Assembly: GCA_001786835.1 (NCBI GenBank)
Contig: MFTO01000008.1
Coordinates: forward strand, 1 to 33,132
DNA: 33,132 nucleotides
From: Candidatus Nomurabacteria bacterium RIFCSPHIGHO2_01_FULL_40_20
Lineage (GTDB): Bacteria; Patescibacteriota; Minisyncoccia; Phycocordibacterales; UBA9973
Direction: 5' to 3'
Shown here: positions 13,161 through 24,813 of the stretch, piece by piece
Layout of the letters: every line of letters begins with the position of its first letter
Numbering within the stretch: the first letter of the stretch is position 1
The notes under the pieces: generated by a model
Database searches by the model: none
Told to the model about the DNA's origin: nothing
What the model saw: only the letters and a program-made list of their open reading frames with translations
Position numbers and translations under genes: made by a program

Positions 13161-13228
13161 ATCCCGTTTAGAAATTTTGATAACGGGAATAAGGATTAAA
13201 TTATTAATATTAAATTTCTAAACGGGAT
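13161..13228 (+). repeat. 68-base start-codon inverted repeat, copy 2 (def leader)
   Basis: ATCCCGTTTAGAAATTT (13161-13177) is the exact reverse complement of AAATTTCTAAACGGGAT (13212-13228), a 17-bp stem whose last two bases are the A and T of the def ATG. Middle segment AACGGG (13182-13187) can pair with CCCGTT of the left arm. Relative to the rpiB and hpf copies both arms carry one extra T/A pair, a compensatory change that supports pairing. Confidence 0.9.
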
Positions 13229-13805
13229 GAAGCAAATCTTGCAAAAAGAAGAACTGGTCTTGCGTAAAGTCGCGAAAGAAGTTCCCCTATCGCAAATCAA
13301 ATCTCCTAAAATTCAAAAAATACTAAAAGAAATGTCTGTCTCTCTCAAAAGTCAAGCCGATGGGGTGGCTATCGCGGCTCCGCAGATAGGATATTCTCTG
13401 TGCATCTTCGTCGTCTCGGGAAAAGTTTTTGAAAAAGATTTTTTGAAAAAAAGAACCTTCCCGACGTCCAACGTCGGGGAAAACGTCGGGGAAACGTCTA
13501 AAGATAACAACACCTCTCAGAGAGATTCCGCTGTGAAGAATATGGTTTTCATCAACCCGAAAATCTCCAAACTCTCAAAAGAGAAAGAATGGACTCCGGA
13601 AGGATGCCTCTCGGTGCGTTGGCTTTACGGCAAAACCTATCGCTCAAAAAAAGCGAGCATATCTGCTTACGATGAAAATAGCAAGAAATTTACCCGTGGG
13701 GCTTCGGGACTTCTGGCGCAAATTTTTCAGCACGAGACGGATCACTTAAACGGTATACTTTTTATAGACCATGCAAAAGATATCAAAGAGGAACTACCGA
13801 AGTAG
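13227..13805 (+). CDS. def: Peptide deformylase
   Basis: Metal-dependent enzyme that removes the formyl group from new proteins. 192 aa. All three motifs are visible: GVAIAAPQIG (residues 46-55), EGCLSV (125-130, metal ligand Cys127) and QHETDHLNG (168-176, metal ligands His169 and His173, catalytic Glu170). Residues about 77-104 form an extra loop between the first two motifs; its DNA holds a GC-rich palindrome (13459-13480) plus a further copy of AACGTCGGGGAA. The start ATG sits in the right arm of the 68-base repeat. It is followed by fmt, its functional partner in formyl-Met metabolism, 29 bases downstream. Confidence 0.95.
   Translation: MKQILQKEELVLRKVAKEVPLSQIKSPKIQKILKEMSVSLKSQADGVAIAAPQIGYSLCIFVVSGKVFEKDFLKKRTFPTSNVGENVGETSKDNNTSQRDSAVKNMVFINPKISKLSKEKEWTPEGCLSVRWLYGKTYRSKKASISAYDENSKKFTRGASGLLAQIFQHETDHLNGILFIDHAKDIKEELPK
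13459..13499 (+). repeat. GC-rich palindrome inserted in def
   Basis: TCCCGACGT (13459-13467) pairs with ACGTCGGGGA (13471-13480), then AACGTCGGGG repeats directly (13482-13491) and GACGTT-related sequence continues. It encodes the NVGENVGET part of a loop absent from typical Def. It belongs with the GTCGGGG-type palindromes at 17329 and 27888. Confidence 0.7.
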
Positions 13806-13834: not shown

Positions 13835-14755
13835 GTGAAAAAAGATAATATTAATTTTATATTCTTTGGGACACCGGACGTGGCAAGTGAGACGCTTGAA
13901 ATTTTAAAGCAAGCTGGATTTTTGCCCTCGCTCATCGTAACCGCGCCCGACCGCCCCGCCGGACGCAAAATGCTGTTAACTCCTCCACCTGTTAAAGCTT
14001 GGGCGATAGCAAACAATATTCCATACATTCAGCCAGAAAACTTAAAAATCAAAACGGAAATTGTTTTTACGACCTCTTCGCAGGCTGGCGAGCCGAGAAA
14101 AGCAATTTCCCAACAGGGAAATATGCGTGAAAGTAAAAATAATTTCCGTTTTGATTTTGCTATAGTTGTGGCTTATGGAAAAATTTTGTCGGAAGAAATA
14201 TTGAAAGCTCCTCGCTTGGGCTCAATAAACATTCACTATTCCCTACTTCCAAAATATCGCGGGGCTTCCCCTGTTGAATCCGCAATACTAAATGGCGACA
14301 CGGAAACAGGAGTATCCATCCAGCAAATGGAATTAAAGATGGATACAGGTCCAATCCTCGCGCAAGAAAAAGTGGCTATTATGCCCGACGAAAAAGCACC
14401 CGAGCTTCGCAAACGTTTGATAAAATTAGGCGGAGAGCTTTTGGTAAAAACATTGCCTGATTTTATAGAAGGAAAAATCACCCAAACACCTCAAGACGAA
14501 TCTCTTTCAACCTATTGCAAAAAAATGACCAAAGAAGACGGTCTAGTCAACTTGGAGGTTGAACCTCCAAGTGCGCTTTACAACAAGTTCCGCGCATACG
14601 CCACTTGGCCCCGCACTTACTTTTTTAAGGACGGCCTGCCTGCGCAGGCAGGTAAAAGAATAATTATCACAGATGCTGTATTAGAAAATAATCAGTTCAT
14701 TATAAAGAAAGTAATTCCCGAGGGCGGAAAAGAAAGAACTTATTCCGAGCTCTAG
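13835..14755 (+). CDS. fmt: Methionyl-tRNA formyltransferase with palindromic insertions
   Basis: Formylates initiator Met-tRNA. 306 aa with GTG start (MKKDNINFIFFGTPDVASE). The formyl-THF-binding core is intact: NIHYSLLPKYRGASP near residue 130 (Asn, His of the active site) and ETGVSIQQMELKMDTG near 152-167 with the catalytic Asp. The gene carries a 114-base hairpin element in frame at about residues 71-108 (the QAGEPRKAISQQGN stretch), splitting the segment before DFAIVVAYGKIL, and an LPAQAG insertion near residue 270 from an 18-base palindrome. It ends early at ...RTYSEL because the stop codon lies inside another palindrome, removing the usual last residues. Function is probably kept, since the insertions are in loops. 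Confidence 0.93.
   Translation: MKKDNINFIFFGTPDVASETLEILKQAGFLPSLIVTAPDRPAGRKMLLTPPPVKAWAIANNIPYIQPENLKIKTEIVFTTSSQAGEPRKAISQQGNMRESKNNFRFDFAIVVAYGKILSEEILKAPRLGSINIHYSLLPKYRGASPVESAILNGDTETGVSIQQMELKMDTGPILAQEKVAIMPDEKAPELRKRLIKLGGELLVKTLPDFIEGKITQTPQDESLSTYCKKMTKEDGLVNLEVEPPSALYNKFRAYATWPRTYFFKDGLPAQAGKRIIITDAVLENNQFIIKKVIPEGGKERTYSEL
14045..14158 (+). repeat. 114-base MITE-like hairpin element inside fmt
   Basis: Left arm 14045-14070 and right arm 14133-14158 are 26-base inverted copies with a single mismatch (a possible G-U pair). Between them lie two smaller hairpins, GGCT/AGCC (14083-14094) and ATTTCCC/GGGAAAT (14105-14122). The whole element is read through in frame and adds about 38 residues to Fmt where other family members have only a short loop. 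Confidence 0.85.
14550..14572 (+). repeat. 23-base palindrome inside fmt
   Basis: CTTGGAGGTT (14551-14560) and AACCTCCAAG (14562-14571) are perfect inverted copies around one G, extended by an A/T pair. It shares GAACCTCCAAG with the dnaE palindrome at 8930-8940. It does not lengthen the protein relative to the family. Confidence 0.7.
14635..14652 (+). repeat. 18-base perfect palindrome in fmt (LPAQAG)
   Basis: CCTGCCTGC followed directly by GCAGGCAGG. Read in frame as LPAQAG within a surface loop that other Fmt proteins lack. Confidence 0.8.
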
Positions 14756-14772
14756 AGCTAACTCTAGAGCTC
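14747..14772 (+). repeat. Palindrome carrying the fmt stop codon
   Basis: GAGCTCTAGAG (14747-14757), loop CTAA, CTCTAGAGCTC (14762-14772). The fmt TAG (14753-14755) is in the left arm. There is no T-run after it, so it is not a classic intrinsic terminator, but the stem could still slow polymerase or protect the 3' end. Confidence 0.75.
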
Positions 14773-14778
14773 AAAACC

Positions 14779-24354: not shown

Positions 24355-24747
24355 TTATTTCTTCCAAGGGCGGTAGCTCCTGAGGCCTTTCATCATGTCT
24401 TTTACTTTGCGGGCGCCACGGAAAAATAGGGCTTCTTTTTTGTTTTTCTTCTTGGTAATGTCTTGAAAAACTTTTTCTTTGATTTCATCTATCGCGGTTT
24501 TCTCGTCTTCCGCGTCCGCGCTGGCGTAAAATTTCTCACCGTTGATATTTATCAGGCAGTCCGCGTGAAAAACTTGCCCTTGATTATGATGTTTGGTGCT
24601 TTTGGAAATTTCAAAATTGATACTGACTTCCCCGCCTCCCTTCTCGGTATTCGCCAAAAATTTCTCCAGATTGGTGACTTTTTTAAGGGCATAATCTTTG
24701 ACATCCTCGGTTAAATTTATATTTTTGCTATGAATATTTATGTTCAT
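24355..24747 (-). CDS. hpf: Ribosome hibernation promoting factor (HPF/RaiA family, short form)
   Basis: 130 aa; binds the small ribosomal subunit decoding region and stabilises idle ribosomes. The fold beta-alpha-beta-beta-beta-alpha is recognisable: MNINIHSKNINLTEDVKDYALKK with MNINIHSKNINLTED at residues 1-15, then a Lys-rich helix, EVSINFEISKSTKHH, GQVFHADCLINING, EKFYASADAEDEKTAID. A basic tail (KDMMKGLRSYRPWKK) follows, but not the long-form dimerisation domain. The ATG is inside the right arm of the 68-base repeat at 24746-24813, the third gene with this arrangement, which is interesting for a stress-linked factor. Confidence 0.92.
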   Translation of the reverse strand: MNINIHSKNINLTEDVKDYALKKVTNLEKFLANTEKGGGEVSINFEISKSTKHHNQGQVFHADCLININGEKFYASADAEDEKTAIDEIKEKVFQDITKKKNKKEALFFRGARKVKDMMKGLRSYRPWKK

Positions 24748-24813
24748 CCCGTTAGAAATTTATTTAATAATCAACCTTCACTACAACCCCGTTTTGTGAA
24801 TTTCTAACGGGAT
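24746..24813 (-). repeat. 68-base start-codon inverted repeat, copy 3 (hpf leader)
   Basis: Minus strand: ATCCCGTTAGAAATT (24813-24799) and AATTTCTAACGGGAT (24760-24746) form a perfect 15-bp stem, identical in both arms to the rpiB copy. Middle AAAACGGGG (24795-24787) can pair with CCCGTT of the left arm. The remaining loop sequence is unrelated to the rpiB copy, so only the pairing segments and total length are conserved. Confidence 0.9.

Follow-up and report, generated by a model that had tools for sequence, protein, structure and literature searches.

The gene fmt, encoding methionyl-tRNA formyltransferase, occupies positions 13835-14755 on the forward strand of the window, by which we mean the whole stretch of 33,132 nucleotides analysed, from the Candidatus Nomurabacteria bacterium RIFCSPHIGHO2_01_FULL_40_20. 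Its ORF of 306 aa matches the Pfam family Formyl_trans_N (E = 1e-35) and scores 217.8 bits against NCBIfam TIGR00460, for which the cut-off is 201.5. Open in frame within this gene lies a palindrome (14045-14158, forward strand), recovered from the ORF list, the predicted fold and an inverted-repeat search. Its left arm (14045-14070) and right arm (14133-14158) are 26 nt long, 96% complementary with a single mismatch, and separated by a spacer of 62 nt, in which the predicted fold places one inner hairpin at 14077-14099 and a second at 14102-14126. As RNA, the palindrome folds at -48.8 kcal/mol, compared with a mean of -20.6 for shuffled sequences (z = -9.2), and none of 200 shuffles equalled it. 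The earlier note had described an in-frame inverted repeat with two inner hairpins at this position, and this description is borne out. No plasmid relatives of fmt were found by blastn.

Other palindromes lie close by. The adjacent deformylase gene def (13227-13805) contains a different small palindrome in frame (13434-13510), about where the deformylase at another locus (L184) carries a copy of the repeat described below. Two further palindromes occur at the end of fmt, one in the C-terminal domain (14632-14654) and one containing the stop codon (14741-14774). Three intergenic inverted repeats (1133-1200, 13161-13228 and 24746-24813), with nearly identical arms of 15-17 nt and 34-38 nt between them, each touch a gene end and represent another repeat family. 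Finally, the minus strand between 14877 and 24324 carries a row of four paralogous ORFs, each 567-584 aa long and containing repeated pairs of cysteines, with other genes between them.

In an AlphaFold2 model of Fmt built on a 30-sequence alignment (mean pLDDT 82.6), with which Fmt structures rank first in a Foldseek search, the sole segment with a pLDDT below 50 comprises residues 78-102, whose codons (14066-14140) lie within the palindrome. By sequence, the insert falls in a region equivalent to E. coli Fmt residues 71-79, approximately. It is predicted to form a disordered loop, in keeping with the surface loop that the earlier note had asked about. The insert had also been credited with 38 extra residues, which is too many. 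Fmt proteins with this type of insert have 39-42 residues between the conserved PE and VVAYG motifs, compared with mostly 15-20 in short alleles (two have 9 and 11, and one short site, with 25 residues, forms its own small hairpin). The net gain is about 19-27 residues, less than 38 because the outer arms partly occupy what is native sequence in other species.

The fmt palindrome is one copy of a dispersed repeat, and the unit that recurs is a core of about 82 nt (14061-14142; 86.9 bits with the covariance model R1) rather than the palindrome as a whole. The outer parts of the two arms, 14045-14060 and 14143-14158, are unique to the fmt copy. The 26-nt arms, which the earlier note had proposed as a search sequence, are thus not themselves the repeated unit, the outer arms being copy-specific. 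BLAST of the source genome (550,711 bases, 77.7% complete) identified a second copy on another contig, directly upstream of an ORF that by eye is murI-like, and a 78-nt core search of 100 relatives matched 44 at E <= 0.1. Most of the early copies, when folded, share a basal stem, a nearly invariant hairpin 1 and a variable but paired hairpin 2; across copies the sequence of hairpin 1 is almost unchanged, whereas the stem bases of hairpin 2 differ with pairing kept. R1, which was trained on 28 copies from these early searches, detects the core at 16 places in the source genome and in 79 of 80 genomes of the genus at E <= 0.01, with 785 matches in total over the 80 genomes, and at E <= 1e-5 in 44 of 285 sampled genomes of the class, representing 29 of 221 genera; these E-values are approximate, and copies used for training are bound to match. 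The genomes compared are species representatives.

Among the full-length R1 matches listed are Nomurabacteria, Zambryskibacteria, Kaiserbacteria, other Paceibacterota and MAGs; the pattern scan behind the named loci returned at least 119 stretches, of which 80 are listed. Pattern matches beyond Patescibacteria (e.g. Streptomyces, Pseudomonas and Acidobacteria) cover model positions 17-39 or fewer and look like chance, and viral carriage was set aside, the single 19-nt match in viral contigs scoring as a fragment only. In one locus (L226, positions 10-185), two R1-like cores form a direct tandem repeat whose period is 88 bp. For quantitative analyses, copies were taken from the 99 of 121 and 67 of 75 rows of two model searches that remained after requiring at least 40 bits over the whole model and removing one contig duplicate, together with 23 first-round copies; collapsing these left 159, and the 158 with 40-base flanks constitute the working set.

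Nearly half of these copies (76 of 158) are spanned by an ORF of 120 aa or more, and the others include intergenic copies. Pfam families were recognised in 25 of 30 spanning ORFs scanned; the remaining five may not be genes. The families hit repeatedly are M1 peptidase (two), UvrD (three), phosphoglucomutase (two), TGT (two), TsaD (three), MnmA (two) and release factor (two), and those hit once are class I tRNA synthetase, PolyA_pol (a CCA-adding-type enzyme), class V aminotransferase, KsgA, RsmE, deformylase, TruB and an amidotransferase/phosphoribosyltransferase, in addition to one ORF with weak cyclase-like matches only. The release factors and the amidotransferase are weaker cases, with the repeat at the N-terminal edge, ahead of the domain. 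The named host genes thus comprise fmt, uvrD/pcrA, tsaD, tgt, mnmA, ksgA, rsmE, def, truB and others, with the repeat on either strand and free of stops; in the source genome, the genes for Fmt, M1 peptidase, TGT and class V aminotransferase are among those that carry it. Copies are read on both strands and in all frames, mostly in two frames that are often stop-free. Of 35 stop-poor cores (type C), 28 lie in ORFs of 200 aa or more, compared with 40 of the 123 cores of types A and B (p = 6e-7), an enrichment that is suggestive only because stop-poor sequence also favours ORF calling. From the conserved open frames, we infer that copies in genes are translated as part of the host protein. One tsaD (L290 in genome G039) has the only clear frame break, at an A-run just upstream of the insert, for which sequencing error, a pseudogene and slippage are indistinguishable explanations. 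The suggestion that the fmt palindrome resembles the Rickettsia palindromic elements (RPEs) in a CPR-type genome fits well with a core dispersed in frame in many unrelated conserved genes as well as between genes.

The same gene sites have different content in different species. At the fmt site, compared in 33 rows from 32 genomes (G005 appears twice), R1 is present in 10 rows from nine genomes, while three rows have a palindrome of a TLGR type, four a PSAF-type one, one another long insert, and 15 only 9-25 residues. The comparison of alleles that had been proposed thus finds fmt with the element, without it and with other palindromes in its place; relatives do not all share the same residues, and the core is dispersed elsewhere in their genomes. 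One short fmt site (L061 in G027) appears to be a leftover that retains the 3' portion of a TLGR-type insert, which suggests that the rest was lost.

At the UvrD site, an insert is present in 51 of 61 species and absent from the other 10; by peptide patterns, on which these class assignments are based, the inserts are R1 forward (17), R1 reverse (9), TLGR (9) and other (16). On a weakly supported tree, in which 32 of 57 inner branches are open, the fewest changes are 32 for all states (shuffled mean 36.0, minimum 30), 14 for R1 versus not R1 (mean 19.95, minimum 15), 8 for filled versus empty (mean 9.4) and 9 for orientation (mean 7.7); therefore, the presence of R1 is partly inherited, and orientation is not. 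Sister pairs G008/G009 (support 99), G027/G056 (83) and G006/G058 (81) have opposite orientations, and core type and orientation at the uvrD site turn over among close relatives. The TsaD site holds 26-55 residues in all 30 loci parsed; R1 occurs there in either orientation, alongside other inserts. An argument from serine codons, with TCN at filled and AGY at empty uvrD sites, was abandoned once additional empty sites proved mostly to use TCN as well; for uvrD, 46 of 48 loci were parsed, and in a further set 17 of 23 loci yielded the site.

Outside the core, pairing continues while sequence conservation does not. Across the 158 copies, conservation drops to background within a few bases past the model ends, yet the flanks of a copy pair mutually with a mean local score of 12.0, compared with 6.6 for flanks taken from different copies, and exceed the 95% point of the null in 100 of 158 copies; by location, 50 of 76 copies in ORFs and 40 of 82 elsewhere have paired flanks. 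Comparison of arms across species at a single site gives the same picture. In uvrD, at the 18 of 46 loci with exactly 48 residues, where three with another core register dilute the signal, left and right arms are 73.5% Watson-Crick paired, compared with 48.3% when arms are re-dealt among species (maximum 57.4 in 1000). In tsaD, at the 12 of 30 loci with exactly 44 residues, the values are 73.9% and 63.0% (maximum 71.2), and sliding the arms by 1-3 bases reduces pairing to 37-51%. It could be argued that both arms travel with the element, or that it inserts only into long inverted repeats already in place, so that no rewriting is involved, and some empty uvrD sites (e.g. in G042 and G016) do bear a short native inverted repeat. 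We judge this unlikely, given that the flanks beyond the core share almost no sequence, that the uvrD arms vary among species with left and right changing together, and that the native repeats are much shorter than the arms of filled sites.

Could the hairpin instead be a functional RNA involved in mRNA stability, processing or regulation, with compensatory changes selected at the RNA level? The strong fold of 14045-14158 and the covariation of both inner hairpins would agree with this, as would mismatches over the outer arms of all copies (48 G-U, 33 A-C) and over the whole basal stem in the larger group, where G-U (145) outnumbers A-C (49). The inner stem may therein carry inherited G-U pairs or be under some RNA constraint. 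Elsewhere, however, mismatches show no preference for G-U over A-C: hairpin 2 has seven G-U and seven A-C (in the 153 of 158 copies whose best register has at least five Watson-Crick pairs) and the uvrD arms have 19 and 24, compared with 22 and 0 in a control of 100 tRNA acceptor stems, for which the tRNA finder itself favours G-U. The tsaD arms have 15 G-U and 11 A-C. That the uvrD arms co-vary with no G-U excess over A-C favours rewriting of the arms at the DNA level over selection on an RNA fold. Moreover, the orientation of the repeat relative to the gene is free, and the mRNA would therefore carry either strand, and a covariance-model scan of Rfam (E <= 5) found no family over 14045-14158, its three weak reports lying elsewhere. 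Altogether, a selected RNA seems to us quite unlikely.

Hairpin repeats are typical cargo of Y1 (RAYT) transposases, and a REP-like element mobilised by such an enzyme deserves consideration because 55 of 80 genomes of the genus contain Y1_Tnp, with up to 13 matches per genome. Nevertheless, the source genome (at its completeness of 77.7%) has no Y1_Tnp, the number of cores is uncorrelated with the number of Y1 matches (rho 0.08, p 0.49, n = 80), and no core lies within the six Y1 loci read; Y1 mobilisation seems to us rather improbable. An ordinary species-specific Fmt loop whose DNA is palindromic by chance would fit the varying length of the fmt site across the genus but is ruled out for practical purposes by the fold (z = -9.2) and by the same core in many unrelated genes and between genes; because the core recurs in the source genome and across the genus, the fmt palindrome is more than chance.

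Altogether, these results make it probable that the palindrome belongs to a non-autonomous family of hairpin repeats with a core of about 82 nt, which spreads as selfish DNA across Paceibacteria, is tolerated in frame in genes, and has its arms rewritten by template switching. In our model, the core would disperse through Paceibacteria as selfish DNA, and a copy landing in a gene would persist if its net length keeps the frame, if a stop-free frame is read and if a disordered surface loop is tolerated. The hairpin formed by the DNA would provoke template switching by DNA polymerase, in which one arm serves as the template and the second becomes its reverse complement; in this way the inverted repeat would grow outwards into the host sequence at either side, and the arms of each copy would stay paired. 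We speculate further, as a possibility that we hold tentatively, that the core drives template switching repeatedly, so that host codons on both sides become reverse complements and the flanking residues of the protein coevolve through DNA pairing rather than through protein or RNA function.

The repeat appears to work like RPEs, a statement that refers to behaviour and not to sequence. The NCBIfam library holds an RPE model, and a scan of six insert-bearing proteins returned no RPE domain at E <= 1, a comparison made at the protein level. RPEs (Ogata et al. 2000, 2002, as described in PMC10969869 and PMC2229807; see also PMC2635572) are hairpin repeats of about 105-150 bp that form several families in reduced genomes, occur intergenically and as in-frame fusions within conserved protein-coding genes, and are tolerated as a translated insert in gmk (as cited in PMC2229807). 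Similarly, the repeat described here is a dispersed palindrome of RPE size (114 bp, with the 82-nt core at 16 places in the source genome) that is also in frame in unrelated conserved protein genes. It differs from RPEs in belonging to another phylum, in being read on both strands, in having copy-specific outer arms that run on into host codons, and in sharing gene sites that are refilled by different families and orientations. The protein-coding palindromic repeats of Wolbachia (Ogata 2005, via PMC2229807) likewise place palindromes in the protein genes of a reduced genome. Correia/NEMIS and ERIC MITEs are also small non-autonomous repeats with long stem-loops, and in Correia elements the open-frame variant is the intra-ORF one (PMC2229807), as type C seems to be here. 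MITEs, however, end in conserved inverted repeats and are often flanked by target duplications (PMC2229807), whereas the termini here are not conserved, and in the 158 copies we found no conserved terminal inverted repeats of the MITE type.

In yeast coding genes, template switching has been found to homogenise the arms of inverted repeats and to invert the spacer between them (PMC8604942), and hairpins can both arise and be maintained through it (PMC8794818). Such quasipalindrome correction resembles our case in arm homogenisation, spacer inversion and paired multi-base changes in coding DNA (PMC8604942, PMC8794818); it is known as a mutation mechanism, whereas the process proposed here would recur around a mobile repeat found in many genes of a single bacterial genus. 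In mitochondria of Nematomorpha, inverted repeats within protein genes also have both arms coding, but these are long perfect repeats in organelle genes, apparently with no dispersed core (PMC6649704). No report of such elements in Patescibacteria was found in the literature searched, which took in few subscription papers.

The hairpin repeats found in protein genes thus make up a real family that spans the genus, and the copy-specific and apparently rewritten arms are its new feature. Palindromic elements that code for protein were already known in Rickettsia and, by citation in PMC2229807, in Wolbachia; the present family extends their range to a distant radiation of very reduced bacteria and to a broad set of housekeeping genes, in which the same site may be filled in one species, empty in another and refilled in a third. 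If template switching does rewrite the arms, the repeats would provide hundreds of natural replicates in which to measure this process in protein genes, together with a warning that covariation in a stem need not imply a functional RNA. Moreover, if the core does drive repeated rewriting, it would be a standing generator of multi-residue changes in the housekeeping proteins of a whole genus of reduced bacteria.
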